From Polychytrium aggregatum (lineage: Eukaryota > Chytridiomycota > Chytridiomycetes > Polychytriales): DNA of 64,000 nt. Positions 1 to 52,374 of the stretch are shown piece after piece. The notes under the pieces are model-generated. The model saw nothing but the letters and a program-made list of their open reading frames with translations, made no database searches and was not told the origin of the DNA. The stretch is from the NCBI RefSeq assembly GCF_025602895.1, contig NW_026516264.1:1-64000 (forward strand), given 5' to 3'. The position numbers and the translations under genes were made by a program. Every line of letters begins with the position of its first letter. Positions within the stretch are counted from its first letter, which is position 1.

Positions 1-492
1 TTATTATTATATTATTATTATTATATTATTTTTTTTTTTCTTCGCTTTTATTTTATATGGCTTATAAACCTAACCATGGGTTTCCAGTCCTCCCAGTCCC
101 CCCGGCTCGAGTCGAACAGATCATGCTGCAAATTACCCAACAAACCTCGAAAGAAAGGTTCGAAAAGTTGTAACGACAATCCTTTTTGCATCCAATCTAT
201 ATTATTGAAGAATTGATAGTGATATATGATATAGTGTGGTATTATTAATCCAATATTGCTGGGACGAGGCTTCGCTATTGTCCATATTCTCCAGTCAACC
301 AAACGGACCAATACACCGCCTGGCAACAGTATCAACAACACAGGACGGCGCCGGACAGCAGCTCGTTGCGGATAAAGAGAAGGCTCGAAGCGAGGGACAT
401 GATCCACAGAAGAGCTAGCACACTGGGATGAGAGTACAAATGACGGACCACGGGAAGGAGAGTGGGAAGCGGGAAATGGAAGCAAAAAAGGC
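1..492. repeat. Inverted copy of the sequence beside the tRNA pair
   Basis: The first 40 bases are a TTA/T-rich simple repeat. From about 300 to 492, read on the minus strand, the sequence matches the sequence downstream of the tRNA pair at 7749-7950, apart from substitutions and a T-rich insertion of about 20 bases in the latter. The two regions are therefore inverted copies that include their tRNA genes. No gene is supported here; the open frames are shadows in both copies. Confidence 0.7.
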
Positions 493-564
493 TAGCATCG
501 GGAGGTTTCGATCCTCCGACCTCAGGGTTATGAGCCCCGCGCGCTTCCACTGCGCTACGATGCT
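493..564 (-). tRNA. Initiator tRNA-Met (CAT), copy A
   Basis: A 72-base cloverleaf on the minus strand, with a perfect seven-pair acceptor stem (AGCATCG with CGATGCT) and discriminator A. The D arm is GCGC/GCGC, the anticodon loop is CTCATAA and the T loop is GATCGAAAC. The A1:T72 first pair and the A-type T loop mark the eukaryotic initiator rather than the elongator. A T-run follows on the minus strand, as expected for a Pol III terminator. It is identical to the copies at 4501-4572 and 7677-7748. Confidence 0.95.
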
Positions 565-572
565 GAAGTAAT

Positions 573-655
573 TGACGAGAGTGGGATTCGAACCCACGCC
601 TCCGGAGAGATCACGGCCTTAACGTGACGCCTTAGACCAACTCGGCCATCTCGCC
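573..655 (-). tRNA. tRNA-Leu (AAG), copy A
   Basis: A class II tRNA of 83 bases including the discriminator. The acceptor stem is GGCGAGA with TCTCGTC (one G:T pair), the anticodon stem is TCACG/CGTGA with loop TTAAGGC (anticodon AAG), a long variable arm follows, and the T arm is GTGGG/CCCAC with loop TTCGAAT. It lies eight bases upstream of the initiator tRNA in the same orientation, so the two may be co-transcribed. Confidence 0.95.
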
Positions 656-949
656 TTGTTTGCTATTACAGTAAAATAAATATATAAACATTATAAAATC
701 TACAGAAGACCGCCACCATCACCCCAGTGCTCACCGCGCGTGACTTTCTATTTTCAAGCTCTCGTGCATCACACTTTCATCTTTCATTTTTCACCCTGTG
801 TTTCTTTGGACAGCACCCCCCCCCAAGTTCAAATCCTTTGAGCTTCCGTATATGCTGAAGCGTATCCGCAACATCCCAAACAATTCAGCCCAATCAATAT
901 ATAATAAGTGTCGATCCAAATGCCTTTCCAGGCACTGGCACTGGCACTG

Positions 950-1473
950 GCCTTACTAACCAGGACAGTTTATAATCATCACTGCAGCTCCCTGTCTCTT
1001 GGGGAGCTGTTTGCGGAGGGGCGGCGATGTCAAGCTTTGCCTAACTCATCCGTCCAGTGAGAGTTTGGAATCTGCAACTCTAACTTCCATGTGCTGACAT
1101 GTGCTGACATATGCCTGTGAAACTGTTTCCTCAGGCCCCTATTGTCGTGCATGGCTCATACGACCGATTGGCGCATACGAATGATTGGCGTCCACAACAG
1201 ACACTGAGCTGCGATGTCACCCAACACCGCCACGACATTCAGCCAGATCGCTGGTCTGTTGTTGAGGATTCGTTCGCGACTGGCACACCATTTGCTCAGT
1301 TTTCCTGGTCGATGGTGACTGGTCTTGCGGGCACTCGAGCCAGCTTGGGGGGTGTGCCGGTTGCAAGCCCGATGTACGTGATGCCTTCGCGAATCGTCGT
1401 GGGGTGTACGTACTTGTCAAGACGGTCGTCGGCTCGGACATATTCCGACGCATGTTTCCTGTTCACGGGTATT
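950..1473. repeat. Dispersed repeat, copy 1
   Basis: This segment matches 3007-3532 in direct orientation, offset by about 2059 bp, with long identical blocks (for example the interior around 1111-1350) and more divergent flanks. A perfect 12-base tandem, TGTGCTGACATG-like, lies at about 1090. Open frames run through both strands but differ in length between the copies, so no intact protein is supported. The class of repeat is not recognised. Confidence 0.8.
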
Positions 1474-3006
1474 TGAGGGAAGACTCGCCTGTAGTCGTCA
1501 TATACCTGCCTCATCTCGAGCGCCTGTATGCCTCACGACCCCATCCAGGCTCAGCTTTTGATATCTGTCTTCCTGCCGTTTGCACCAGTTAGGACTGGCA
1601 ACAAAGATCACCCATCACCTCGTCGCCTCTTGCGTTATTAATAAACACTCTGTTGTTCCCAATGACGATTTCGACGCAATTGGTAATATACCCTCTGTTC
1701 AAGTCGATTTTCATTCACCAAAATTTATCGGACACATTCTATCCCATTTGAAACATCGTCTACTCAGAACAATATCCCCATACTGTTACGTGGACTCTGG
1801 CGGAGGGGAGGGGTAACCTAAGGCCTGTAGTCACCGTGAAGATACGTATATTGGCGAGAACAACAAGATAACGAAGGACAGGGGAGACAAGGGGCTCGGA
1901 GGGTCGAAGGCTATATAGGAGAGGCAAGCAAGGAGAACACATGGCCTGGGTTCCAGGCAGGTGTGGCTTAGGGTTGTAACACATACAGTCGCAAATCAAA
2001 TATATTATTACACTCTTCCGTGTCCAGTTTCTAGCTTTCGTATCGATTTATCAAAAAGATATTTCCGCCAAGGTCAATGGAATACCACTCAGTCGCAGTC
2101 CGAGTCCTTGCACAAGACACATTGTGGGTGAACTAATTTTTGGTGGGATACCACCATTTAAAACTGATCTGCGTAGCTGCGACGATGATCATTCAAGCGG
2201 GGATCGGCTTATGATCTTCAGTAATTACCAATTTATATAAGCCTCGAACATTCGGCGTCCTATGGTTATCAGTATACTGCATATCATATTGAGATCTGTA
2301 AAGCTGCAGTATGTTCAGTACATAAATAAATGCAATACAACACAATACACATGTAAATACGATTTTACACAAAATCAGAAGTGTATGAATAAATATTGAC
2401 ACGCAAAAAGGGCACATATCAATGTTAAAACCGACCTTCAAACACTCCTGACTCAGAGCTCACAAACTGCACTTTGGCTTCTTATGGTGGAATATTGCGC
2501 TTAATTTTAATTTTAATTTTCTGAACTGCTTCTATACCGATACTGACAAAGTATCGATTTATGACTGCTTTTTACTAATGCATAAATACCCAAGGCTTCG
2601 ATCAAATATCTACTTAAGGTAGTACTACTCCTTGATTTAGGCAAACTACTTGGGTTTGAAAGAATGGTGAAGAGAGAGGCTTATCGGGAAGCTTATGTAA
2701 TATAACTCACCAGGCTGGATAGTGAAACAGCGACTTTCCACACATTGCCCAAAATTATTACAATTTACCCGCATTTCTCCACACCAATCGAGTTCCTCTT
2801 TCATGGTCAGCTTGTATCTTTTATTTTACTTTTCAAATTAACTAGCCAATTAACGCTTGGCGAGGACGTTTAAACTACTTTTGGCATTACTACATTTCGA
2901 CCCTGCTTGAGAAATTAGATTCGGAATCTGATGCTGAGAATAGTCAATGGGTGGGTCTTTATTAAGACTTGCCTTAGCGTCCCTGGCGGGCTCTGGCACT
3001 GGGTGT

Positions 3007-3532
3007 TGGTCTTACTAACCAGGACATTTTACAACCACCACTGCAGCTCCCTGTCTCTTGGGGAGCTGTTTGCGGAGGGGCGGCGATGTCAAGCTTTGCC
3101 TAACTCATCCATCCAGTGACAGTTTGGAATCTGCAGCTCCGACCTCCATGTGCTGACATGTGCTGACATATGCCTGTGAAACTGTTTCCTCAGGCCCCTA
3201 TTGTCGTGCATGGCTCATACGACCGATTGGCGCATACGAATGATTGGCGTCCACAACAGACACTGAGCTGCGATGTCACCCAACACCGCCACGACATTCA
3301 GCCAGATCGCTGGTCTGTTGTTGAGGATTCGTTCGCGACTGGCACACCATTTGCTCAGTTTTCCTGGTCGATGGTGACTGGTCTTGCGGGCACTTGAGCC
3401 AGTTTGGGGAGTGCGCCGGTTGCAAGCCCGATGTAAGTGACGCCTTCGGAGATCCTCGCAGGGTGTACATACTGCTCGAGACGGTTCTTGGCTCGGACAC
3501 ATTCCGACGCATGTTTCCTGTTCACGGGGACT
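3007..3532. repeat. Dispersed repeat, copy 2
   Basis: Direct repeat of 950-1473. A minus-strand open frame of 181 codons crosses its right edge (3355-3900) but is not conserved in the other copy, so it is probably a remnant or chance frame. A transposon fragment is the likeliest origin, but I see no terminal repeats or diagnostic domain. Confidence 0.75.
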
Positions 3533-4409
3533 TTGGGACTATTGGGTCCAGGCTTTATGCGCGCTCCACCAGGTTTGGGAGGGAAACCTCTGACCCGCCA
3601 GAGGAACATTCTTCGGGCTTGAGCGGCTGATATCACTGGCATCCGCGCGGTCAGGACAGGGTCTCCATCCCATTTGTAGGTGCCTGCGATCGACATTACC
3701 TTGCTTGATTTCCTTCCTTTTCGTAGAGGCGCATAGTCATTGCCTTTTTGATGGGAACGCCTGTTCTTGTCCTGATGCTGAGAATAGTATGTACAGGAGG
3801 AATACAGAAACAATGTGTGCTCTATGTATGTACTTTCTGTTGGTATATTTTTTATTATGCGAGAGATTCTTTTTATCCGCATAAAAACTTCTATACACAC
3901 ACACGTAATAGGGATTAAGCCACACCCACCCAGTAGCGAAAGCTCTGGGAACCAAGTTCAATTCTTTGTTCAGAATAACTCAGCTGAATCTGGCGTGAGC
4001 CAGAAACCTTCCTGTGGAGATGCCTGTAAGCTCTCTATGTGGCTACCGAAGTTAGTTCCATCGAAAAATTGATTTCTCAAGTGTCACGTAGACATTGATG
4101 GCTTGCATACTTGCTTCCGCCCTTTGGGAATATGAAAATAAATATACTATTAATAAATTACGTAATATGGATGCAGAAGCCTCATCACAGCAACATCGGT
4201 TCTATGTAAGCCATAGAAAACACTCTGAGGAATTTGCTGCGATAATCTGTAACATTTTATAATATTTGCTTAGAATGAAATACTGGGGTCTACAGTTTGT
4301 GAGACCCCAACGACTTGTGCACGACAGCGAAAGCAAATGTGTGATCGGGGGAGGCTTGATCTGGTATTATCAAATAGTTTATATTTTTAATTTTTTTAAA
4401 CGATCTCAA

Positions 4410-4492
4410 GGCGAGATGGCCGAGTTGGTCTAAGGCGTCACGTTAAGGCCGTGATCTCTCCGGAGGCGTGGGTTCGAATCCCACTCTCGTCA
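4410..4492 (+). tRNA. tRNA-Leu (AAG), copy B
   Basis: Identical in sequence and fold to the tRNA-Leu at 573-655, on the plus strand: acceptor GGCGAGA/TCTCGTC, anticodon AAG, long variable arm and T loop TTCGAAT. It is the upstream member of a Leu/iMet pair. The sequence immediately beyond this pair does not resemble that beside copies A and C. Confidence 0.95.
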
Positions 4493-4500
4493 CTTGCTTC

Positions 4501-4572
4501 AGCATCGTAGCGCAGTGGAAGCGCGCGGGGCTCATAACCCTGAGGTCGGAGGATCGAAACCTCCCGATGCTA
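4501..4572 (+). tRNA. Initiator tRNA-Met (CAT), copy B
   Basis: A 72-base initiator tRNA starting eight bases after tRNA-Leu. The A1:T72 pair, CAT anticodon and GATCGAAAC T loop are the same as in copies A and C. A TTTTTT terminator follows at about 4576. Confidence 0.95.
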
Positions 4573-7500
4573 GCCTTTTTTGCTATTTTTCTCTTCCACT
4601 ACTCGATTGCATCAATTTTATCGATACTTTTGCTGTCCTGGGATGGGTTTAATAAAAATCCTCATTCAGACACCCCATATTGTAATTATTCAGAATTTGA
4701 CGACTGGACGATGAAGTACGCTTCCGAACCGAACAGCAAATCATATGTTTTTGAATATGGACATCGACATATTCTGACTATCTCATCATTCATCAGATAT
4801 TTTATAGATGCTTTATCTAATCATATTTTCGTTTTGATTCCGTTTGCTGACCGCGAACTCCACCGGGGCAGATGAGCAGCCGGGAAAATATTCGCAGCAA
4901 TACCTTCATGAAAACAAAAAATAGTTCCCGAACTATCAATATGGCTTAAAAATCGGTCAGTCGAGCTGACAGTGAATGAAATGACTTGCCCAGTTATTCA
5001 TTAGATTTTTGACATCAAAAAATTGATAGACTCGATAAATATCGAAGTTGTGGAGGCTCAAGATTGCGATCGCGCGATCGAATTAGTTCCTAATCAGAAT
5101 ACGTAGAGAATCAGCCTAGCAAGCACATCGTACCTCTGTTTTTAATGCGTTCGGCCTATGTCTATAATCTGGCAATCACTACTCCTACATTATATTTTTT
5201 CAGTGCCCTACACAATCATTTAACCACGCGCTGTTGTGTTATCTAGGCTAGTGACAGGCTGCTTTGGGAGTAAGGCTTCGACCAAAGTCGTCAAAGCTTG
5301 AGCTGAATGTCGACTGGTTCAGCACTCGGTCCAATCTCAATATGTTTTATATATCAATCTGTTGTTCAGGTTACTTGGGTTTTCCATATTCGACAGAATA
5401 GTCTTCTATGAACAGGTGTCGCATCAACCCATCGGAGCGATGATGCTCGAGCTAGACAAGATATTGCCAGCCGATCTTTGATCAACCCGTGACCCAAGAA
5501 ATACCCAGTCAGGCTGATCAAGCGTGGGAGAATCGCAGACTCAAACGCATCTTCAGTTTGTAGTATCGGTGGTATTTTAAGGTACTCTGGTACCAGATTG
5601 CTATGAGATTGAGTGGACTCGTCAGGATGATGGGACTATGCTCGAGGCGCATTACTCCACCGCGCACGGCTCATGAAGCTTCAAAGTACAACTTCAAGGT
5701 ATTCACGCGTAACCCGATCCTTTAATTGTCATTTTATATTGGGAACCACTCAGGATAATCCAGATCAACAGGGTAACGTCCCCCCAGCATGGTTAATGGC
5801 TTTAAAAACGCGAAAGGATTACGGTACTTCTGTGTTATTTTGGCGCGAATAGGCTTAAGCTATATTATCAAATTAAATTTGAACGCGGAATCGAGGGCGC
5901 TGCGCGCCAGCTTCCAGATATTGATTTAGTCCAAGTAAACATTACCTGAAAATTATGGAGGCTGCTAGTAAGCATATTTGGGGCACATGGTCACCGGAAC
6001 AAATCCGAGTTTCCGCCCCCCCCCCTAATGGGAGGTCTATATTCTTTTTCTTTTCCGGACCACCACGCCGACAAGCAAACGGACCTGCATTCATACAGCC
6101 CTAAACCCATAAAATTGGGTTCCTCGAGTATTTTGGCGCTATTATTGATGTCACCGTATTTTTGCATCGATGGAAAATGTGACGGCCGGCACGCCGCCAC
6201 ATGTGCGCGGCAGGCTGACACTGCCCCGTCCTCTTGCTGGGCTGGGCCTATAAAAGGGCACTCCGCCCTCCCCGGGACAGGCCCAGCAAGAGGAGTCTTC
6301 TGTTTTCATCCGTCTGAATATACTTCTCGCTCCAAGGCACCGTCCCCGTCCCAGCTCCGTACCCGTCCGTTACAGAAAACCCCGAACGAATGGTGGTCAG
6401 GACGAAGAGAGCAGCGCCCAGCATGTCCAAGCTGGCTTGGCCATCGGAAACCTTCGGTCAAGTCCCCAACAATCACATATCGCATGTTCCCGTGATTCAT
6501 GACGGGATCTGGCTTTGCCCTCGATGCCATCCCGGAAATGAAACGGGATGGCTCCACAGGACACAGACATTCTGCCTGAGCCAGCTGTCTCGCATAGTCC
6601 GCGCGACATCACACGAAGCACCATACCACTACTGTGGACTGCCCATAACAACAGGAAGATTGCATTTATTACCTGTTTCATCAGCAGCAATCAAGGACCA
6701 ACCATACTTTGAAAAGTTCCACTACAGTGACGTTAAGTGAGGCCTGGCCTGTTCATGTAAGTACAGGAGCGCCGCATTTTTGATGATCATAACCTTCGAC
6801 AAGGACAGTGATTCGACCACGGGATCCACAAATCCGATCGGTCAAACCATTCATGCTGACCCCTAATGCACAGTCATTATCCAAGCACGGAAATCAGTCG
6901 ATGTACTCATTCGCGCTGAGAACAAAAACGGAGAGAATCTGAATCAAGTTCGGACCAAACCATTCCACGCAGACTATACATCGGAACAGTATGGTCGAGG
7001 ACAGAGGTTTTCTCGGATATTCACAGTTTATATCATATCTGCACTAAAACAGAGATACAACGGCAAAATCGAGGTAGAAATCGGCCGATAACACGCACCG
7101 GCTTGCATAGATGAGGATGAAGCCTTGAACGCCCAAGCGGGAGCCATAGAAATATTATTTGACGGATCAAGTTCGAGACCGAAGGTGTCAGGCCCATTGT
7201 TCTGATACACACCAGGAAAGATTTACAAGCTAGAAAGCGAGAAACTCATCATGTAGCAGGCCCTAATAGTCCTGCCAACTAATATGAAACATATTTTTCA
7301 CGACCTGAAATAGGGACTCGCTGAATGGACAGTCCGACCCAGCAAATCTTCCGGGGTGGGACCCGTGGGCCACTCAAATAGTCCAAAATGTGTCGAAATG
7401 CGGAAAACCCACGGGGAACTGATAAATATAATACGGCCGCAGAGACAGAATACAATATATTGATAAAAACAGGTTCGGAGCGGCCATAGGGCTGAGCTGT

Positions 7501-7585
7501 TATATGAGTGACAGAGCCTATGGTTCTATGGAAACTGGATCGATAGAATTGGGATGATATTGTATATATTGTTGATCGAAATCAA
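4573..7585. other. AT-rich region without a recognisable gene
   Basis: Short open frames only, none with a recognisable domain. A C-run at about 6017-6025 and a TATA-containing inverted repeat at 6230-6293 (listed separately) are the only structured elements I could identify. Confidence 0.5.
6230..6293. promoter_or_regulatory. TATA box between arms of a perfect 13-bp inverted repeat
   Basis: CCTCTTGCTGGGC at 6230-6242 is the exact reverse complement of GCCCAGCAAGAGG at 6281-6293. Between the arms, at 6249-6256, is TATAAAAG. The arrangement resembles a promoter or long terminal repeat with a regulatory palindrome. No convincing downstream coding region follows, so it may be the relic promoter of a transposable element. 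Confidence 0.45.
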
Positions 7586-7668
7586 GGCGAGATGGCCGAG
7601 TTGGTCTAAGGCGTCACGTTAAGGCCGTGATCTCTCCGGAGGCGTGGGTTCGAATCCCACTCTCGTCA
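7586..7668 (+). tRNA. tRNA-Leu (AAG), copy C
   Basis: Third identical copy of the tRNA-Leu(AAG), on the plus strand, with the same class II fold. The internal A and B box regions are intact, so it should be transcribed by Pol III. Confidence 0.95.
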
Positions 7669-7676
7669 ATTACTTC

Positions 7677-7748
7677 AGCATCGTAGCGCAGTGGAAGCGC
7701 GCGGGGCTCATAACCCTGAGGTCGGAGGATCGAAACCTCCCGATGCTA
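7677..7748 (+). tRNA. Initiator tRNA-Met (CAT), copy C
   Basis: Third identical initiator tRNA, eight bases after tRNA-Leu and followed by a TTTTTTT terminator. Its downstream flank to about 7950 is shared with copy A in inverted orientation, showing that A and C belong to one segmental duplication larger than the tRNAs. Confidence 0.95.
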
Positions 7749-8738
7749 GCCTTTTTTTGCTTCCATTTCCCGCTTCCCACTCTCCTTCCCGTGGTCCGTC
7801 ATTTGTACTCTCATCCCAGTGTGCTGGCTCTTCTGTGGATCATCGTCATTTTTTGTTTTTGTTTTTGTCCCCTCGCTTCGAGCCTTCTCTATCCACAACG
7901 AGCTGCTGTCCGGCGCCGTCCTGTGATGTTGGTACTGTCGTCTGCTGGTGTGCTTGTGGCCTCAATCTCGGCAAACTGCTCCGTCACCGCTTCGATCGTC
8001 AGCCTTCGAGTATTTCTCGATCTGCTCTCTACATCTCGTCGGCTTCATACCAACATCACGTCTATGCTTCACTCTTGGCAATTTTGATCCTGTCAGTTTG
8101 TTGGTCTGAGCTGCATGGCCCACGCGGCCCACTACGGCCTCGGGCAAGCAGCCGTGGATTCTGCGCCGTTGGGCTCTGTGCTCCGTCTCATCCCTTGCCT
8201 GTTTGGGCTGACCTGTCGGTGCTCCAATCCGCCTGTCGATCTTTGCCCTTCGTCGCTCTCCTCTGGCTGCCGTTGCTCGTCCCTCCGACACCCGCTCCAG
8301 CCTGCTGGCCTTTCAATCTGAAGCAGATTTGGTCGGTACGCAATCGCTTTTGGCCCATTGGATCGACCCTTTGTCTTAGCCAGATCGGCTGCCGTTGCCA
8401 ACTTTCACTGTCCAAATCCCCGGCCTTGCCCAGTTTATTCGAGCCGGCATCTCCGACATGGAGTCGCTCTCGCATCGACCCATTCTCTCTGGTTTGGCCT
8501 TTACACTTGCATATCTGTATCCTTGTGGTCATATCCTCTCGTCTTTATTCAACCGCGACCATGTCGATTGAGTCCCAATCTCACCCAAACATCATCGGTC
8601 TGGTGGCTATCCTGTAGCAATCACCTCGCCGTGTGCCGAGCTCTTCGGTCATCCCTGTCCTGCTTTCTCTGACCGCTTCTCCTGCCAAAGACTTGTCCCT
8701 GTGTCTCAGCGCTCTCATCTGCACTTCCAAAATCGATC
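7749..8738 (+). other. Pyrimidine-rich region between the tRNA pair and the RING gene
   Basis: The first 200 bp belong to the duplication shared with 300-492. The rest is CT-rich. A 308-codon open frame (7691-8617) starts inside the initiator tRNA, lacks any recognisable domain and has no support as a gene. The stretch probably contains the promoter and 5' leader of the RING gene at 8739. Confidence 0.4.
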
Positions 8739-15294: not shown

Positions 15295-15310
15295 CACTAT
15301 GAAAAAATTC
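15295..15310. repeat. Left terminal inverted repeat, element 1
   Basis: CACTATGAAAAAATTC pairs with the right terminus CACTATCAATTTTTTC, matching at 11 of 16 positions including the first six and the last three. It is also the 3' end with respect to the Fanzor gene. Confidence 0.85.
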
Positions 15311-15609
15311 TTGTTAATAAAATGAGCGAGAACGAAAAAGCGCGCTCTCGGAGCCACCTCGGTCGGCGAGAAGAGCAGTCTCTGGCGAGAGACCCCCGAG
15401 GGAAGGCGAGAAGCCTCTCGCCGGCACACACACACACTTTGCACAAGGGAGTCAAACACCTCCCATCACCATCCCAAGAGGGATGGCAACCCCGAAGTGG
15501 ACTGCCCAGAATATGGGCGACCCGGCATCTACTGTCGAAATACTCAAGGAACAGTGCGAGATACTTACAGTCTATCCAGAAAGAAACGGGACACTTCCCC
15601 TTTCTGGCT
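15301..15609 (-). ncRNA. Candidate Fanzor guide-RNA scaffold (fRNA), copy 1
   Basis: In TnpB and Fanzor loci the guide RNA is transcribed from the 3' end of the nuclease gene to the element terminus, and the guide is the flanking DNA. The equivalent region here runs from the stop codon to the left terminus. It has three perfect stem-loops: GTCTCT/AGAGAC with loop GGCG (15378-15393), GGCGAGA/TCTCGCC with loop AGCC (15405-15422) and CCATCCC/GGGATGG with loop AAGA (15469-15486). All three are unchanged in copy 2. There is also a (CA)n run. Transcription, exact ends and guide length cannot be seen; this is inference from position and structure. Confidence 0.6.
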
Positions 15610-18255
15610 TCAGATATCTGAACCCCGCTGACTGACTGTAGGCCCCAGTGAGCAAGCCGTGAAATTGTTTCCCGTCTTGGTTGGCAATCTCTTTGTTTGG
15701 GTTGGTTTCGGGAGCACAGTCTTGAATACACCCGGTCGATCTCCTGTGACGATGATCGACTGGCATACCGAGATCATATTCCTGGCTGCATTGATGTCTC
15801 GATCCCACAGCGTATGGCAGCTTGTACAGCTCCGGACAAAGTGTGGTTTCTCGATATCAAGATACTCGGGTGACTCGAGTCGCTTGGCTTCCCGACAATG
15901 TGAGCACACCTGAGATGTGTTGAACTCGTTCACCGAGCACACACGGATCTTGGAGACGGATCGGTCTGGTGGGCGTCTCTGGTGGTGGGTGAACTGCTCA
16001 AAGTACTTGGCGAACCTGAGTCTCCGTGGGCTGGATGCGTATCCCTTCCCCTGTTTCCAGGATGCATTCCCAAAGGCAATCACCACTTCGGTCTCCTTTG
16101 GTGCCTGGTCAATGACTTGTTTGCACATCTCGTGGACGGTGCGCTGTCGCTTGCCGTGGAGATCGAGTCGCTTGAATCGCCGTCGCCGGGTCAGGCTGAA
16201 GTACAGCTGTTTGTCCAGCATGTCTCCATCGAACACATGGCGAATGTATCGCAGGAAGGAAGCCAACCCAGGGATCTTGGGACTTGGTGTGGTGCTCATC
16301 CATTCCTGCAGACCAAGGATCTTGTGGGTGCTCTGGATCCACTTGGTCGCTTGGGTGGTGCCACATCGATGCTGGTACTCCTTGTTGGAGAACGACACGA
16401 TCTTCTCGTTGGCACGCTGTGCCTTGGTCACCTTGACACCGTCTCGCTCCTGGATGGATGGTTGACCGGGTGCTCGAATGACAGCAGTGAAGATTGATCC
16501 CACACCAGGGTCGATCCCGATCCAAGTGGTCCGAGAGTCGTCGATGGGACCGACCCTGGCCTGGATCTTCTTCTCGGGAGTGAGCTTGAGTGTCTTGTCG
16601 TCCTTGTCTGTGGATTCTGGTTTGACATTAGGATCCTTCTTCTCCAGGATCTTGTATCTGAGCGTGGTGATCGAGCACCCGACCCCATCGGTGGTGATCT
16701 CGCAACCAAAGAGCTGCTTTCCCTCCTCCCTGGCACCAAAGAGTCTCGGATCCAGCTTGAAGTTGGTCTGCCAGAAGGTCTCTTGCTTTGTGGTGTCATT
16801 GACCTTGGTCTTCAGGTCGTCCCACTTGAGCCCAGTGCCAGTCTGGTATCCAAGGATTTCCCACAGTGCTTTGGTGTCGAGCTTGACATACTTGGCTCGG
16901 GCATCGCAGAGTGGGACCAAGGTGCACTGTGCTCGAGGGATGTTGAGTCTCTTCTTGGTCTGGGCAAGTCGGTCGGCCAGTCGCTTGATCCGCTTCGTGT
17001 TCACAGCGATCTGCTTGCACACCTCCTCGTGCTGGGTCTGGAGTGCGTTGTGCTTGTCAGGCAGCCTTCGTTCGATAGAGCGACACATTTCCTCGTTCAG
17101 TCGCCCACGCTCTCCTTTCAGATCATCGGTTCCCCTCACGAGCCTGGGAATGATCATCTTCTGAAAGACCACCATGAAGAGGGCCTCCTTCAGGTGGGTC
17201 AGTCGAGAGACTTCACTGGCCAGAACTGGTACGACTTTGTATAGGTCCTGGTGGCTTTCGTACCGAAACTCATACAACTGGTCGGCATGGTGGGCGAAGG
17301 ATTTCCTCAGATCACCGAGAAGTGTCTTGGAGAGGGGGTTCTCCATCAGCTTCATGCACTCCTCGACGTGTGTGTGCCGTTTCACACCCTTGGGAGCAAT
17401 CAGGGCCAGATTGCAGAATCGGCGTAGAAGGGACCAGTATCGATCGAGAACGTGGGTCTCGCAGTTGACAGCATAGGTCTTGACAGCCAATGTGAGGATC
17501 TGCGAGCCAGTACCCTTTGGGAGGGACACAGAAGGCAGGATACACGACTTTCCCCATGCACGTCGATACAGGTCATATGTGTCGAGGATGTGCCTGTCAT
17601 CTTCTGGGGTGTTTGTCCTGACACCCACTGTTCCTGTCTGCACCATGTTGAAGCATTTTCGAACAAACGCGGGTTCACTCGACGACACAGTGGGGAGAGT
17701 GATGCCCTCGTCCAAGCATCGCCTGAGATGCAGCTCCAGGAGACGAGATGCTTCGTACTGCACTTGAGTCATGGCCCGAACAGTCTCCTCGATCTTGTCG
17801 TGCAAGGCATCGTTCTTGATGATGGCGTCGAGGGTGCACTTGATGATCGAGTACTCGGCCTTGGCATACTCGTTTGGGCCACAGTCAGGCAAGGTAGAGC
17901 TCCAGAGTGGGTTCTTCTTGGTACACAATGAACTGCTGCTTTTGGCATGACCCTCTTCCCCGCACGTGGCACATACAGGGACCTTGGGTGCGGGCATCTC
18001 GACCACGAGGGCTGGGAAGGCAGTGTCGTCACTGGACTCGTCTGGAGGGGGTGCTTGGCTGACCATTTCAGCGACCGAGGCAGAGCCAGCGGCAGGGCTG
18101 CTGTCGACTCTGGCTGTGCACTTCTTGGTGAAGGGTCTGACATGGTTGGTCAGTCCACAGGAGGGACATGATTTGATGACGGGTTTCTTGGCCACAGGAG
18201 AGTCACTGGGTGATCCTGGGTCGGGGTCGGGGGGTGTCTTTCTCTTGGGAGCCAT
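15610..18255 (-). CDS. Fanzor RNA-guided DNA endonuclease (intact)
   Basis: An uninterrupted 881-codon gene from ATG 18255; an upstream in-frame ATG at 18351 would add 32 residues. The N-terminus has a basic patch (PKRK) suited to nuclear import, then two CX2CX4HX7C zinc-knuckle-like motifs (C30/C33/H38/C46 and C95/C98/H103/C111). The central part is helical and basic. The C-terminal RuvC/TnpB domain shows WIGIDPGVG (Asp582), VNEFNTSQVCSHC (Glu777, Cys784, Cys787), then C810/C813 and WDRDINAARN (Asp820). The position of the usual RuvC-II Glu reads VVIAFGNASW and lacks it; Glu777 just before the zinc ribbon is the alternative glutamate known from Fanzor proteins. Fanzors cut DNA using an RNA made from the 3' end of their own locus. 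No intron is needed to keep the frame. Catalytic competence is predicted, not shown. Confidence 0.93.
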   Translation of the reverse strand: MAPKRKTPPDPDPGSPSDSPVAKKPVIKSCPSCGLTNHVRPFTKKCTARVDSSPAAGSASVAEMVSQAPPPDESSDDTAFPALVVEMPAPKVPVCATCGEEGHAKSSSSLCTKKNPLWSSTLPDCGPNEYAKAEYSIIKCTLDAIIKNDALHDKIEETVRAMTQVQYEASRLLELHLRRCLDEGITLPTVSSSEPAFVRKCFNMVQTGTVGVRTNTPEDDRHILDTYDLYRRAWGKSCILPSVSLPKGTGSQILTLAVKTYAVNCETHVLDRYWSLLRRFCNLALIAPKGVKRHTHVEECMKLMENPLSKTLLGDLRKSFAHHADQLYEFRYESHQDLYKVVPVLASEVSRLTHLKEALFMVVFQKMIIPRLVRGTDDLKGERGRLNEEMCRSIERRLPDKHNALQTQHEEVCKQIAVNTKRIKRLADRLAQTKKRLNIPRAQCTLVPLCDARAKYVKLDTKALWEILGYQTGTGLKWDDLKTKVNDTTKQETFWQTNFKLDPRLFGAREEGKQLFGCEITTDGVGCSITTLRYKILEKKDPNVKPESTDKDDKTLKLTPEKKIQARVGPIDDSRTTWIGIDPGVGSIFTAVIRAPGQPSIQERDGVKVTKAQRANEKIVSFSNKEYQHRCGTTQATKWIQSTHKILGLQEWMSTTPSPKIPGLASFLRYIRHVFDGDMLDKQLYFSLTRRRRFKRLDLHGKRQRTVHEMCKQVIDQAPKETEVVIAFGNASWKQGKGYASSPRRLRFAKYFEQFTHHQRRPPDRSVSKIRVCSVNEFNTSQVCSHCREAKRLESPEYLDIEKPHFVRSCTSCHTLWDRDINAARNMISVCQSIIVTGDRPGVFKTVLPKPTQTKRLPTKTGNNFTACSLGPTVSQRGSDI

Positions 18256-18731
18256 CTGGCGAGAAAATAGCGACGATGGCTGGTTCTGCCCTCGGGGAAG
18301 AAAGAGTCTCCTCAAAACCAGCGCATTTTTGGGCTGGCAGAGATACTGCACAGTGGCGTCCTTGATTCAGATCCAGAAACGCATCGCTCGCTCAATCAGT
18401 CGTGGGAAGACATCTTGTCAAGGTGAGTCTTGCCTGATAGCCAAACGATCATGTCACCTCGCTGACACACAGCCACGCTTGACTAGGTTTCCAACCAGAG
18501 AGATTCAGATGGTGGTGGTTCTTGTCCGCAATCGGAGTGGAGCTTCCAACAATGATACAATTGGTCATTCCTCCACACCAATTGCCCACCACCACCGTCA
18601 ATCGGCTCAAGACGATACCAAATGCCGTCAACCGACCATGGCCGGATTCCAACTTTTGCTGCATCTTGGTCTCCAGCGTGTATTCATATTCGAGATGAGC
18701 AGCCGCGAGGGGCCGGAAAAAATTGATAGTG
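18256..18731 (-). promoter_or_regulatory. 5' region of the Fanzor gene and right end, copy 1
   Basis: About 475 bp from the Fanzor ATG to the right terminus, conserved in copy 2. It should hold the promoter and leader of the nuclease gene. The right terminus, read inward, is CACTATCAATTTTTTC at 18716-18731. No other coding region is recognisable. Confidence 0.6.
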
Positions 18732-38485: not shown

Positions 38486-38491
38486 CACTAT

Positions 38492-38800
38492 GAAAAAATT
38501 CTTGTTAATAAAATGAGCGAGAACGAAAAAACGCGCTCTCGGAGCCACCTCGGTCGGCGAGAAGAGCAGTCTCTGGCGAGAGACCCCCGAGGGAAGGCGA
38601 GAAGCCTCTCGCCGGCACACACACACACTTTGCACAAGGGAGTCAAACACCTCCCATCACCATCCCAAGAGGGATGGCAACCCCGAAGTGGACTGCCCAG
38701 AATATGGGCGACCCGGCATCCACTGTCGAAATACTCAAGGAACAGTGCGAGATACTTACAGTCTATCCAGAAAGAAACGGGACACTTCCCCTTTCTGGCT
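38492..38800 (-). ncRNA. Candidate Fanzor guide-RNA scaffold (fRNA), copy 2
   Basis: Equivalent to 15301-15609, with the three stem-loops conserved at 38569-38584, 38596-38613 and 38660-38677. Because the nuclease frame is broken in this copy, this RNA could still act in trans with the intact protein from copy 1. A guide taken from the flank would read CATCCATCTGCCGCCTCCCA, which is ALG6 5' leader sequence. Transcription is not shown. Confidence 0.55.
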
Positions 38801-41447
38801 TCAGATATCTGAACCCCGCTGACTGACTGTAGGCCCCAGTGAGCAAGCCGTGAAATTGTTTCCCGTCTTGGTTGGCAATCTCTTTGTTTGGGTTGGTTTC
38901 GGGAGCACAGTCTTGAATACACCCGGTCGATCTCCTGTGACGATGATCGACTGGCATACCGAGATCATATTCCTGGCTGCATTGATGTCTCGATCCCACA
39001 GCGTATGGCAGCTTGTACAGCTCCGGACAAAGTGTGGTTTCTCGATATCAAGATGCTCGACCTTCTCGAGTCGCTTGGCTTCCCGACAATGTGAGCACAC
39101 CTGAGATGTGTTGAACTCGTTCACCGAGCACACACGGATCTTGGAGACGGATCGGTCTGGTGGGCGTCTCTGGTGGTGGGTGAACTGCTCAAAGTACTTG
39201 GCGAACCTGAGTCTCCGTGGGCTGGATGCGTATCCCTTCCCCTGTTTCCAGGATGCATTCCCAAAGGCAATCACCACTTCGGTCTCCTTTGGTGCCTGGT
39301 CAATGACTTGTTTGCACATCTCGTGGACGGTGCGCTGTCGCTTGCCGTGGAGATCGAGTCGCTTGAATCGCCGTCGCCGGGTCAAGCTGAAGTACAGCTG
39401 TTTGTCCAGCATGTCTCCATCGAACACATGGCGAATGTATCGCAGGAAGGAAGCCAACCCAGGGATCTTGGGACTTGGTGTGGTGCTCATCCATTCCTGC
39501 AGACCAAGGATCTTGTGGGTGCTCTGGATCCACTTGGTCGCTTGGGTGGTGCCACATCGATGCTGGTACTCCTTGTTGGAGAACGACACGATCTTCTCGT
39601 TGGCACGCTGTGCCTTGGTCACCTTGACACCGTCTCGCTCCTGGATGGATGGTTGACCGGGTGCTCGAATGACAGCAGTGAAGATTGATCCCACACCAGG
39701 GTCGATCCCGATCCAAGTGGTCCGAGAGTCGTCGATGGGACCGACCCTGGCCTGGATCTTCTTCTCGGGAGTGAGCTTGAGTGTCTTGTCGTCCTTGTCT
39801 GTGGATTCTGGTTTGACATTAGGATCCTTCTTCTCCAGGATCTTGTATCTGAGCGTGGTGATCGAGCACCCGACCCCATCGGTGGTGATCTCGCAACCAA
39901 AGAGCTGCTTTCCCTCCTCCCTGGCACCAAAGAGTCTCGGATCCAGCTTGAAGTTGGTCTGCCAGAAGGTCTCTTGCTTTGTGGTGTCATTGACCTTGGT
40001 CTTCAGGTCGTCCCACTTGAGCCCAGTGCCAGTCTGGTATCCAAGGATTTCCCACAGTGCTTTGGTGTCGAGCTTGACATACTTGGCTCGGGCATCGCAG
40101 AGTGGGACCAAGGTGCACTGTGCTCGAGGGATGTTGAGTCTCTTCTTGGTCTGGGCAAGTCGGTCGGCCAGTCGCTTGATCCGCTTCGTGTTCACAGCGA
40201 TCTGCTTGCACACCTCCTCGTGCTGGGTCTGGAGTGCGTTGTGCTTGTCAGGCAGCCTTCGTTCGATAGAGCGACACATTTCCTCGTTCAGTCGCCCACG
40301 CTCTCCTTTCAGATCATCGGTTCCCCTCACGAGCCTGGGAATGATCATCTTCTGAAAGACCACCATGAAGAGGGCCTCCTTCAGGTGGGTCAGTCGAGAG
40401 ACTTCACTGGCCAGAACTGGTACGACTTTGTATAGGTCCTGGTGGCTTTCGTACCGAAACTCATACAACTGGTCGGCATGGTGGGCGAAGGATTTCCTCA
40501 GATCACCGAGAAGTGTCTTGGAGAGGGGGTTCTCCATCAGCTTCATGCACTCCTCGACGTGTGTGTGCCGTTTCACACCCTTGGGAGCAATCAGGGCCAG
40601 ATTGCAGAATCGGCGTAGAAGGGACCAGTATCGATCGAGAACGTGGGTCTCGCAGTTGACAGCATAGGTCTTGACAGCCAATGTGAGGATCTGCGAGCCA
40701 GTACCCTTTGGGAGGGACACAGAAGGCAGGATACACGACTTTCCCCATGCACGTCGATACAGGTCATATGTGTCGAGGATGTGCCTGTCATCTTCTGGGG
40801 TGTTTGTCCTGACACCCACTGTTCCTGTCTGCACCATGTTGAAGCATTTTCGAACAAACGCGGGTTCACTCGACGACACGGCGGGGAGAGTGATACCCTT
40901 GTCCAAGCACCGCCTGAGATGCAGCTCCAGGAGACGAGATGCTTCGTACTGGACTTGAGTCATGGCTCGGACAGTCTCCTCGATCTTGTCGTGCAAGGCA
41001 TCGTTCTTGATGATGGCGTCGAGGGTGCACTTGATGATTGAGTACTCGGCCTTGACTTGCTCGTTGGGGCCACAGTCAGGCAAGGTAGAGCTCCAGAGTG
41101 GGTTCTTCTTGGTACACAATGAACTGCTGCTTTTGGCATGACCCTCTTCCCCGCACGTGGCACATACAGGGACCTTGGGTGCGGGCATCTCGACCACGAG
41201 GGCTGGGAAGGCAGTGTCGTCACTGGACTCGTCTGGAGGGGGTGCTTGGCTGACCATTTCAGCGACCGAGGCAGAGCCAGCGGCAGGGCTGCTGTCGACT
41301 CTGGCTGTGCACTTCTTGGTGAAGGGTCTGACATGGTTGGTCAGGCCACAGGAGGGACACGATTTGATGGCGGGCTTCTTGGCCACATGAGAGTCATTGG
41401 GTGATCCTGGGTCGGGGTCGGGGGGGTGTTTTTCGCTTGGGAGCCAT
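38801..41447 (-). pseudogene. Fanzor gene, copy 2, frameshifted near the start
   Basis: Equivalent to the intact gene at 15610-18255. The start codon lies at about 41445-41447, but a run of six C (coding strand) in copy 1 is seven C here, shifting the frame after MAPKRKTPP and reaching a TGA about eight codons later. Downstream the original frame is open from at least codon GTG 41386 to the stop at 38801. All RuvC and zinc-ribbon residues are retained (IGIDPGVG, VNEFNTSQVCSHC, WDRDINAARN). The first in-frame ATG after the shift is the Met at about residue 64 of the intact protein, so re-initiation would lose the basic patch and the first zinc knuckle. A sequencing error in the homopolymer is possible. 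Confidence 0.8.
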
Positions 41448-41921
41448 CTGGCGAGAAAATAGCGACGATGGCTGGTTCTGCCCTCGGGGAAGAAAGAATC
41501 TCCTCAAAACCAGCGCATTTTTGGGCTGGCAGAGATACTGTGCAGTGGCGTCCTTGATTTAGATCCAGAAACGCATCGCTCGCTCAATCAGTCGTGGGAA
41601 AACATCTTGTCAAGGTGAGTCTTGCCTGATAGTCAAACGATCATGTCATCTCGCTGACACAGCCACGCTTGACTAGGTTTCCAACCAGAGAGATTCAGAT
41701 GGTGGTGGTTCTTGTCCGCAATCGGAGTGGAGCTTCCAACAATGATACAATTGGTCATTCCTCCACACCAATTGCCCACCACCACCGTCAATCGGCTCAA
41801 GGTGATACCAAATGCCGTCAACCGACCATGGCCGGATTCCAACTTTTGCTGCATCTTGGTCTCCAGCGTGTATTCATATTCGAGATGAGCAGCCGCGAGG
41901 TGCCGGAAAAAATTGATAGTG

Positions 41922-50037: not shown

Positions 50038-51156
50038 CATTGCGCATGCGATTTTGCCGTCCGGGGCTTGAGATGAGTGCTGTGGGTTTGAGCTCGCGGC
50101 TGCGGCCAAGAGGCTCGTATTTGATTGTACTTGGTTATTGCGCAAGTCGTGCTTTTGTATGTATCATCGGTGCACTCATTCCCGCCATGTCCGGCGCTGG
50201 ATGGATCGTGGATGATCAGCAGGTCGTGTCGGAGACGAGCCCCATGTTCCTCGCTCTCCCGTCCTGCTCAGTGCTGCACTTTCTCCTTTCTCGATCCCAC
50301 CCCTCCACAGCGGATTCTGGCGTGGGGAGGGAGATTCGACGCTGCTCTTTTTCGTCCTCTGTTTTTGTTGTTCTCTTCCAACCACACACCCGCATGTTCC
50401 CTCGCCGATGGCCGAGAGCCACGCAACCTCACGCAACTTCACGAACCACCGCAATCCCCTCACCCAGCCACCCACCATTCGACTCCAATGTCCCCTCCAA
50501 CTCACAATACATCCATTCGCGACCACATCTGCATCGTCGTTATCAGTGACTGTTCGCCTTGGCCCGTGCTTTCTCCTGCAACCATGCCCGCTCGCGTTCG
50601 ACCATGCCTGTCCTTCCGGCCCATCAGCCCATCCATCTCGCTGCTCTGTCCATGGCCGGAGCTTCTTTTCCCTTTCCGCCCGCTTCCTTCTCCCAGGCCC
50701 GATGCAAAATGGCTTAATAACACCGATGCAGACGAGGGCAGGCATCTCCCCCGTGCGGGCTGTGCGGGCTGTTGTGGCTGCCGAGAAGCCGAGCCAGATC
50801 CCGGCCATGGGCCGCAGAAGCACCATTGGCCCCCTTCCCCATGACCATGCCATGTTGTGGTCCTGCGGGTCCTGCCGTCGCTCTTGGTTCTCGAACAAGC
50901 TGCGTCTCGCCACTTATTACCGTCCAGCGAGGCATGCATCTTGCTCCGGCGTCATCACCACCACCACCACCACCACCACCACCACCGTCTCAGCCGCTCC
51001 TTCGCCGAGATCTCGGCAGCCGTTTGGATGCCCAGCTCCCGCTCTTGCCCCCTTCAAGACCAGCGCTTTGACTGGCTTTCGCCCTCCTCCAGACAAGCCA
51101 CAGGCAATCTCGGCTTGCCTCTATACCCCCACAACTTCTCTCCTCCTCCTCTGACA
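49646..51156. other. Intergenic region upstream of the LRR gene
   Basis: CT-rich sequence with a (TTTTG)n run at about 50003-50035 and a (CAC)n run at about 50953-50990. Overlapping open frames up to about 250 codons differ in all frames and carry no recognisable domain. It probably holds the LRR promoter and leader. Confidence 0.45.
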
Positions 51157-52374
51157 ATGACTGATCGCGAGTCCGTCGCCGAAACCATCGCCCTGGTGCT
51201 GGACCTCTATGTCTTCAGCAGCTTTGTTACCCTGCCTGAGCTGCTCAAGATCATCATGCTCAATCGAAGCTTTCGCCATCGCTACGAAACCAACCGGCCG
51301 TGCTGGCGACATCTCCTGACCTGCCTGACGCAAGTCCACACAGAAGGACCTTCGATCGATACGGCTATCGAGTTGGATCTCCGGCTTGTGGTGCTGGGGG
51401 CCGATTCGTATCTTCATAGGGTCGGCCCCGCACCACACAAGACCGAGGCGTACCTGTGGGCCTCGGCTGCCGAGGATGCCGATCTGTTCCGAACCGTCAT
51501 GGCTGCCGGCGAGCGCCACTCACAGCTGCTCTATCAGCGATGGGCGCAAAACGAACCCCATGGATATCTCGCCCGTCGAGTCGAGCGGCTTGTGTGCGGG
51601 CCGAACCGGCTGGGATGCTCCGAGCTTGCGCTGTGCTCGCTCGGACTGACGAGTCTGCCCGAGTCGATCGGCGTCATGGCTGCGATGCAGACCATCATGC
51701 TCTATGGGAACAGGCTCCGGGAGCTCCCACAGTCGATCGGAGCCCTCCGGCATCTCTCGGCGCTGCTGGTGGGATGCAATCAGCTCGAGAGCATCCCCGA
51801 ATGCATCGGCCACCTGGCCGTGCTGACGACCCTGGATCTCTCCAGCAACCAGCTGCAAGCCTTGCCCGACTCCATCGTGCGGCTGCGCCGGCTGACGAAT
51901 CTCATCGTCTCGGGCAACCAACTCAAGCGACTACCGGAGCAGATCGGCCAGCTCGCGAGCCTGCAGATCCTGCGAGTCGACTACAACTGCCTCGAGAATC
52001 TACCTGATTCGCTGGGGCAGCTCTCGCGGCTCACAGACCTCTTTGTGGACAACAACCGGCTCTCGGCCCTTCCCGACACCGTCGGGGAGCTGCGGCAGCT
52101 CCGTCGGCTGGGTGCTGCGGGCAACCAACTGGCGATGCTGCCCGAGTCGCTGGGTGGGCTGGTGGGTCTGGAGCTGCTGGACATTACCGGCAACCAACTG
52201 GCGTCCCTGCCAAAGCCGATGGATGCCCTGACGGCGACCGTTGTCCTGGGCATGGACGACCAGTTGCTGGAGCGAGACCCCATCGACATTCTGCGCGGCT
52301 TCTGCGAGCGGATCGGTGTGGGCATGAGCAATCGAGCCCGGTCGCTGTTTGCATTTGCGCGACATGGGCCATGA
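51157..52374 (+). CDS. Leucine-rich repeat protein (Ras-suppressor-like LRRs)
   Basis: A single-exon gene of 405 residues. The first 150 residues are helical, with an F-box-like beginning (LPELLKIIMLNRSFRHRYET). They are followed by about nine 23-residue repeats of the form L..LPESIG.L..L..L....N.L, the SHOC2/Rsu1-type LRR (for example LTTLDLSSNQLQALPDSIV). The C-terminus is short, with SNRARSLFAFARHGP. LRRs of this type are binding scaffolds; the partner is unknown. I prefer start 51157 to the in-frame ATG at 50857, because the extra sequence would translate a CAC repeat into poly-His. Confidence 0.85.
   Translation: MTDRESVAETIALVLDLYVFSSFVTLPELLKIIMLNRSFRHRYETNRPCWRHLLTCLTQVHTEGPSIDTAIELDLRLVVLGADSYLHRVGPAPHKTEAYLWASAAEDADLFRTVMAAGERHSQLLYQRWAQNEPHGYLARRVERLVCGPNRLGCSELALCSLGLTSLPESIGVMAAMQTIMLYGNRLRELPQSIGALRHLSALLVGCNQLESIPECIGHLAVLTTLDLSSNQLQALPDSIVRLRRLTNLIVSGNQLKRLPEQIGQLASLQILRVDYNCLENLPDSLGQLSRLTDLFVDNNRLSALPDTVGELRQLRRLGAAGNQLAMLPESLGGLVGLELLDITGNQLASLPKPMDALTATVVLGMDDQLLERDPIDILRGFCERIGVGMSNRARSLFAFARHGP

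Follow-up and report, generated by a model that had tools for sequence, protein, structure and literature searches.

Fanzor1 proteins are known as passengers of Helitron, Mariner, IS4, Sola and MuDr transposons (PMC3627910), and cut-and-paste transposons of Chloropicon primus and of molluscs have taken up Fanzor2* genes (PMC10711439). A chytrid example is SPu-1 (SpuFz1) of Spizellomyces punctatus (PMC3627910, PMC10432273). Here, we describe a Fanzor gene of another chytrid, Polychytrium aggregatum, located in the first 64,000 nucleotides of contig NW_026516264.1 (assembly GCF_025602895.1), a stretch referred to below as the window. The gene lies in a non-autonomous CACTA (EnSpm-type) element, into which it passed from a Tc1/mariner element, and variation among its many copies suggests that alleles are still exchanged between the two carriers. 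The first-pass annotation of the window had recognized the Fanzor gene and a sister copy, but it missed the strand, the carrier transposon and its chimeric origin, the copy number, and a frameshift in the sister copy. We place the probability of the whole account, comprising a predicted nuclease, its mariner origin, capture by CACTA ends, multiplication in trans, and allele sharing, at roughly two in three.

The locus resembles SPu-1 in its chytrid host, in the presence of many copies with an intact open reading frame (ORF), and in the kind of catalytic signature; terminal inverted repeats (TIRs) with TA are also shared, here by the mariner donor form, and short derivatives recall the Fanzor-less 'ghost' loci of S. 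punctatus (PMC10432273). Unlike the Spu-1 elements, for which the available text of the source reports no transposase, the mariner donor retains a transposase gene; moreover, the window copies reside in a CACTA element with 3-bp duplications, and their protein is 881 amino acids long, compared with 633 for SPu-1-1p. The other Fanzor1 genes are likewise passengers of eukaryotic DNA transposons, several of which lack a transposase (PMC3627910), although CACTA/EnSpm is not named in the available part of that paper, and donor and recipient superfamilies occur here in one genome. Capture by a new transposon family also recalls the Fanzor2* cases, where, according to the accessible text, it was deduced from TIRs, duplications, and phylogeny, whereas the single genome of P. 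aggregatum displays the two carriers and the relic junctions themselves, together with what appears to be later exchange.

The Fanzor ORF occupies positions 15610-18255 on the minus strand, with an ATG at 18255, a stop codon at its end, and no internal stop, whereas several stops interrupt the same interval on the plus strand; the uninterrupted 881-codon gene proposed at first, for which no strand had been given, therefore holds on the minus strand. Fanzor fingerprints comprise a DPG motif in RuvC1 and an alternative glutamate six residues ahead of the zinc finger (PMC10711439). Both are present, as D582 in IGIDPG and as E777, which six residues separate from C784, and the canonical glutamate is absent, with G729 in VVIAFGN lying near its expected position as judged by eye. 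The motif of Bao and Jurka, D-X(125,275)-[TS][TS]XX-[C4 zinc finger]-X(5,50)-RD (PMC3627910), corresponds to D582, T780-S781, C784/C787/C810/C813, five intervening residues, and R819-D820. Every residue named in the first-pass annotation was located (IGIDPG with D582, the four cysteines, and WDRDINAARN with D820), and its assignment to Fanzor was borne out by the fingerprints, the Bao and Jurka motif, and the conservation of key residues. In an alignment of 16 sequences, namely three copies of this family, a third Fanzor family of the same genome, and 12 of 22 database relatives (P0123, P0127-P0130, which are partial Fanzors of P. aggregatum, and P0135, P0139, P0140, P0143, and P0144 were left out), D582, P583, G584, E777, S781, and the four zinc-ribbon cysteines show no variation, and the conservation of D820 is 90% or higher.

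These 22 relatives were retrieved by a protein search with residues 440-860; a search with words from the first 500 residues only returned no relatives, and among viral contigs, 97 pattern-matching stretches yielded no relative by tblastn, a weak test because the patterns were N-terminal only. The sole Pfam family above its cut-off was Cas12f1-like_TNB (PF07282; 6.8e-10, 39.4 bits versus a cut-off of 26.3), the zinc-ribbon domain of TnpB and Cas12f. Sub-threshold NCBIfam matches to Cas12f2 and TnpB models fall inside residues 691-840, and sequence searches of solved structures gave weak matches, the best being Cas12m (E 0.019) and TnpB-like L79 (E 0.035), with no match to solved structures for profile A1. 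The N-terminus opens with MAPKRK, a KRK stretch that we take to resemble a nuclear localization signal, and carries two zinc-knuckle-like motifs (C30/C33/H38/C46 and C95/C98/H103/C111).

Positions within the element are given below in the Fanzor sense as q coordinates (window position = 18732 - q). The ratio of nonsynonymous to synonymous substitution rates (dN/dS) is about 0.33 over q477-2369 and 0.23 over q2373-3023 (253 pairs, 23 copies), and this purifying selection, together with the PF07282 match, argues against a chance ORF. In the last ~30 codons (q3024-3122), frame shifts occur among copies and dN/dS is higher (0.51), which makes it probable that the functional protein extends only to about residue 850. 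By analogy with characterized Fanzors, the gene is predicted to encode an RNA-guided DNA nuclease of the Fanzor1 type, a label that follows from size and carrier.

The gene is enclosed in element A (15295-18731, minus strand, 3437 bp; locus L001 in the genome-wide set), which was delimited by its match to a second copy in the window, element B, with abrupt ends CACTATCAATTTTTTCC...AATTTTTTCATAGTG that recur elsewhere in the genome. Its 5′ terminus (CACTATCAATTTTTTCC, 18715-18731), a 17-mer, was used for genome searches, and its 3′ terminus lies at 15295-15310. CACTAT termini are found at both ends of A, B, and most other copies with both ends mapped, with one change in L018, and within A, agreement between the two ends is limited to these first six bases, after which they diverge (CACTATCAATT versus CACTATGAAAA). 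Thirty loci were fetched, 21 of which had both ends mapped, including the same-site duplicates L010, L014, L020, and L024; an exact 3-bp target-site duplication flanks 17 of the 21, or 13 of the 17 distinct sites, and it is not exact at L005, L009, L013, and A itself (ACC/ATC). Near the 3′ end, TCTCGCC and its complement are repeated at 15365-15422 (q3310-3367). Subterminal repeats of this kind are bound by CACTA transposases.

The genome also contains the CACTA-type transposase domain Transposase_21 (PF02992) at 29 places, 28 of them above the cut-off. Two 5.7-kb elements with Transposase_21 matches (L061 and L062, 99.3% identical over 5697 columns), one with an exact ATC duplication and the other without, have at one terminus the same 13 bases with which A ends on its 3′ side. 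Taken alone, this match has an E value of 1.0, and it carries weight because it is located exactly at the termini of both elements. No transposase was found in the Fanzor-carrying CACTA element. On these sequence features, namely the CACTAT ends, the 3-bp duplications, and the terminus shared with Transposase_21 elements, the carrier of the window Fanzor is assigned to a non-autonomous CACTA element. Its termini, duplications, and subterminal repeats agree with other CACTA elements, and it departs from typical ones in that its own ends match over six bases only and its cargo is a Fanzor gene bordered by mariner relics.

These relics identify the source of the cargo. Five of the 30 loci (L011 and L027-L030, L028 occupying the same site as L027) contain a Fanzor gene ~84-86% identical to that of A inside a different element, in which a transposase gene is followed by the Fanzor gene and a right TIR. 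In L027, the only mariner locus scanned, the upstream gene matches DDE_3 at 7.1e-24, and the imperfect 28-bp TIRs agree at 23 of 28 positions by eye, with TA at the ends; three further copies (L065-L067) have left and right TIR motifs, and another (L064) lacks the left end. By this organization, L027, L029, L030, and L065-L067 are Tc1/mariner elements, and the Fanzor carriers met in this genome are accordingly eukaryotic transposons other than IS607. Two pieces of such an element persist in A: a 53-bp remnant of the transposase gene's 3′ end (18363-18415, minus strand, q317-369; 89-91% identical to L065-L067) and the right TIR (TGTCCCGTTTCTTTCTGGATAGACTGTA, 15566-15593, minus strand, q3139-3166; 26 of 28 bases as in L027, by eye). 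All 34 aligned CACTA-type loci share one 3′ capture junction. Because the CACTA element holds both relics and both carriers are present, the sequences indicate passage of Fanzor from mariner to CACTA. One further locus, L063, was considered as a recombinant of CACTA ends with a mariner Fanzor on the strength of an 84% protein match, and was rejected as such, since its DNA is 96% identical to A and it lacks a canonical open start.

Element B (38486-41921, minus strand) is flanked by an ATG duplication (38483-38485/41922-41924). It is 98.7% identical to A over 3438 aligned columns, as the annotation of a near-identical sister had implied, but it is not intact in the strict sense, since a C-run that is longer by one C shifts the reading from the canonical ATG (41447), which meets a stop after 17 codons; the remainder of the Fanzor frame (38801-41440, minus strand) is open. 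Forty aligned positions distinguish A from B, and at 32 of these both alleles recur among 22 other loci. The two copies are identical over 1.5 kb (q1044-2537), and runs of differing common alleles occupy q857-1043 and q2859-2868.

A genome-wide search for the 5′-terminal 17-mer, with one mismatch allowed, gave 126 places (none for the reversed pattern), some of which share just the first 27-41 bases, so not all 126 carry Fanzor. When the 100 listed 5′ ends were paired with the 100 listed matches to the relic TIR, 56 were paired and 44 were not; among the 56 copies sized in this way, 26 have a spacing of ~1.28 kb (1.56-kb elements), 27 fall at 3.0-3.5 kb, two at 1.8-1.9 kb, and one at 2.3 kb. 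The short form joins q1-503 to q2372-3437, and no Fanzor is encoded in eight of 11 short loci (the eight with a located start). A dN/dS of 0.29 in short derivatives (55 pairs) was set aside as independent evidence of coding constraint, since it probably reflects alleles common to long copies. Several copies depart from these two forms: L003, L021, and L052 have ~650-bp inserts near the 5′ end, in which six-frame translation revealed no long frame by eye, L057 is likewise listed with ~650 extra bp there (q143-220 region), L050 contains two 5′ ends facing each other, and L031 and L042 are ~240-295-bp relatives with little beyond the two ends, apparently formed at microhomology.

The abundance of short copies without the Fanzor ORF (26 of the 56 sized) raises the question of whether the gene does anything for its carrier or is a functionless passenger that CACTA ends merely carry along. 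In line with the latter, 10 of 25 CACTA-type long loci (L001-L026 except L011 and L020, plus L063, same-site pairs counting as two) lack the canonical start or a hallmark; the other 15, however, retain the start and all hallmarks, and dN/dS of 0.23-0.33 speaks for constraint, to which the mariner donor pool contributes. We regard a functionless passenger as unlikely.

Variation among copies is distributed unevenly along the element. Among long CACTA loci (23 compared), the common variants are spread throughout q365-3193, and few lie in the CACTA-derived stretches q69-364 and q3194-3437; q27-68 forms an additional variable patch. Over 342 biallelic sites in 23 copies, r2 is 0.51 for sites no more than 5 bp apart and drops to 0.05 once over 100 bp separate them, close to the no-association value of 0.043 for this number of copies, and violations of the four-gamete test climb from 13% to 81% with distance. 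The test is also violated by 115 of 136 pairs among 17 multi-base allele blocks, each made up of three or more variants in perfect linkage over no more than 12 bp and chosen to exclude repeated point mutation. Private variants, in contrast to common ones, are spread rather evenly along the element in the 19 loci compared (3.6, 4.3, 5.4, 7.3, and 5.0 per kb per copy from the 5′ to the 3′ flank): there are 332 common sites in 2547 bp of Fanzor versus five in 296 bp and three in 244 bp of CACTA flank, an approximately tenfold difference in density, and private mutations are about equally dense. Because private density is even and common variants are concentrated in Fanzor, the pattern fits copying between copies better than hypermutation.

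The mariner copies share in this variation. Of 186 sites that segregate in four mariner copies, 95 have each of their two alleles in two or more CACTA copies as well, and seven mariner copies have a nucleotide diversity (π) of 0.03-0.09 in the Fanzor part versus ~0.02 in the transposase part. Between 24 CACTA and eight mariner loci, the fixation index (Fst) in the first three 200-bp windows is 0.88, 0.78, and 0.51, with 44, 36, and nine fixed differences; farther inward it is irregular, reaching 0.03 at q2717-2916 and 0.69 at q2917-3116, with 14 fixed differences in q917-2916 and 13 in q2917-3116.

Additional information is provided by six locus pairs on different contigs that share an insertion site and its flanks. 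In four of them (L004/L010, L006/L014, L012/L024, and L003/L021), the Fanzor segments are 93.9, 96.2, 97.1, and 93.8% identical, and the flanks are 99.8-100% identical on comparable sides (for L003/L021 the 3′ side only, with some gaps). Both alleles are found elsewhere for 138 of 162, 86 of 98, 61 of 75, and 140 of 162 of their differences in q317-3172, respectively. From these patterns, we infer that gene conversion continues to pass alleles between the Fanzor genes of the two carriers. We lean, by a modest degree, towards a single recombining Fanzor pool shared by Tc1/mariner and CACTA elements, in which the gene would spread between carriers by capture and then be rewritten again and again through gene conversion across superfamilies, each tract covering some tens to hundreds of bases, possibly in response to breaks introduced by the nuclease or by the transposases.

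The following sequence of events would account for the present arrangement. Fanzor started out as a passenger of a Tc1/mariner element, and a 5′-truncated piece of such an element was then caught between the termini of a non-autonomous CACTA element, as the two relics, the CACTA ends, and the duplications show; the chimera would have multiplied, presumably moved in trans by the CACTA transposase of the genome, and Fanzor alleles in the two carriers would continue to be exchanged by gene conversion. The S. punctatus RNA is located 3′ of the gene, with the flank at its 3′ end serving as the guide (PMC10432273). By analogy, an omega-RNA of the mariner form would most likely end at the right TIR and use the adjoining host DNA as its guide, and the nuclease would cut empty sites, into which the element is then copied back. 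In the CACTA form, CACTA-internal sequence, variable in length among copies, starts directly after the relic TIR, and the same RNA would carry this fixed internal sequence in place of a host flank. The captured nuclease might therefore use a shifted RNA boundary, serve the RNAs of other copies in trans, or no longer home; the first is possible because the RNA boundary of TnpB relatives can move to accommodate a new transposase (PMC10711439).

A nearly invariant, hairpin-rich block lies in the CACTA-derived 3′ part (15470-15532, minus strand, q3200-3262). Its π is 0.004-0.008, compared with 0.123 at four-fold sites, and RNAalifold gives a z score of -6.6 for q3171-3295 against 40 column shuffles; the block has four private changes where 7.8-10.7 are expected from two background rates (P 0.11 and 0.019), a weak deficit. 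Rfam returned no match within the element. Two further ideas were abandoned: homing into empty CACTA elements guided by TIR-adjacent sequence, for which no empty site was present among the 100 matches listed, and retention of the relic TIR by selection as an RNA scaffold, since its scarcity of common variants (π 0.03 versus ~0.2 beside it) is accompanied by a normal number of private mutations (four seen, 3.8-5.3 expected).

Several observations weigh against the account as a whole. Divergence between carriers is not low throughout the interior, with Fst of 0.17-0.64 in q917-2716 and ten fixed differences at its peak in q1517-1716. At the 5′ edge, the CACTA copies are diverse and have many fixed differences from the sampled mariner copies, so that an unsampled donor is needed there. 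For mariner sites more than 40 bp apart, the four-gamete test is violated by 51-62% of pairs among the 24 sites of the transposase part, compared with 19-21% among the 195 Fanzor sites, and exchange may thus not be specific to Fanzor. The CACTA-derived parts of same-site pairs also differ, with identities of 99.1, 99.7, and 96.2% in the 5′ part of three differing pairs and, for all four, of 96.5, 99.6, 98.8, and 96.2% in the terminal 3′ stretch that begins with the relic TIR, and two of the six pairs show no Fanzor difference, L019/L020 being identical and L027/L028 99.98% identical over 4574 bp. As for the nuclease, whose RNA-guided cleavage is predicted from its fingerprints, a search for the junction pattern (at most three mismatches; 118 matches versus five in a reversed control) revealed no empty CACTA site with the presumed guide among 100 listed matches, all of which included the TIR side; and the normal rate of private mutation in the relic TIR gives no sign that an omega-RNA end is selected there.

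A more general objection is that a mixed consensus among many similar copies could imitate both the mosaics and the Fst gradient: the copies would be real, reads would have been mixed in assembly, and the mosaics, the loss of linkage disequilibrium, and the interior drop of Fst would be non-biological. The genome offers more than 100 similar copies for such mixing (126 5′ ends and the 118 junction matches), unique flanks of same-site pairs agree while the repeated interior differs, as mixing would produce, and Fst is highest near the edges. However, the L019/L020 pair shows no difference in 2578 Fanzor bases and L027/L028 is nearly identical, although both pairs may derive from the same reads; private variants persist in Fanzor at 5.4 per kb per copy; and A and B combine 1.5 kb without a difference with adjacent tracts of differing common alleles. 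The decay of linkage disequilibrium below 40 bp was considered as an exclusion of assembly chimeras and was judged too strong an argument. An artefact of this kind appears unlikely, and the Fanzor gene, its CACTA carrier, and the capture would stand even if it applied.

The alleles common to both pools could alternatively be old, several mariner-Fanzor variants having been captured, or having diverged, long ago with modest later recombination. The 95 of 186 shared sites are compatible with such a history, but the CACTA flanks would not be expected to hold as few common variants as they do (12-17 versus ~130 per kb), the single 3′ capture junction of the 34 aligned loci points the other way, and four same-site pairs have differences within the element but next to none in their flanks, so we consider old polymorphism improbable. 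Local hypermutation of the Fanzor gene, which would explain why diversity is concentrated there in both carriers, is highly improbable, because no clear excess of private variants is seen in Fanzor (5.4 versus 3.6-5.0 per kb per copy in CACTA parts, at most slightly denser) and the differing alleles are mostly found in other copies, arranged as multi-base blocks.

Beyond this family, at least 150 PF07282 places occur in the 64.7-Mb genome (150 of 663 candidates scored), in several families. A third Fanzor family with many copies and frames of ~809-861 amino acids, for example L068, is 40% identical to the window family, and better-scoring PF07282 places include frames of 447 and 477 amino acids, some in inverted pairs ~5 kb apart. 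Five P. aggregatum database proteins match part of the residue 440-860 query at 88-94% identity, three of which (P0123, P0127, and P0129, with F-box, male-sterility-type reductase, or kinase domains) contain 92-146 C-terminal Fanzor residues at 88-91% identity; these segments would be either exonized short derivatives or gene-model errors. Elsewhere in the window, positions 1-8000 have a lower GC content and hold a repeat cluster, with direct copies at 931-1469/2989-3528 (93%) and 4381-4581/7557-7757 and inverted repeats at 313-661/7580-7951 and 481-689/4377-4584, and two plus-strand frames, encoding a leucine-rich-repeat protein (50857-52374) and an RNA-recognition-motif (RRM) protein (55241-56794), are likely host genes.

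In the literature covered, which did not extend to most subscription papers or to one major 2023 Fanzor survey, no report linking Fanzor and CACTA was found; an EnSpm family and a Fanzor element are mentioned separately in the available text of PMC12633428. Searches for P. aggregatum with Fanzor gave no match among those listed, searches for the species with 'transposable element' gave none, and nothing pertinent to gene conversion among chytrid transposon copies was present among the listed matches; Fanzor and gene conversion occur together in five papers. As this coverage is partial, no priority is claimed.

The locus bears on how Fanzors are transferred between transposon families and on what a carrier gains from the nuclease. 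In P. aggregatum, donor, recipient, and relic junctions stand side by side in about 100 or more copies, so that the capture can be followed step by step in the sequences. The two forms also constitute a natural experiment, in which host flank would act as the guide in the mariner form and a fixed internal sequence would do so in the CACTA form, and comparison of their RNAs would distinguish a moved RNA boundary from action in trans. If the proposed exchange is real, two transposon superfamilies would be sharing one evolving nuclease gene.

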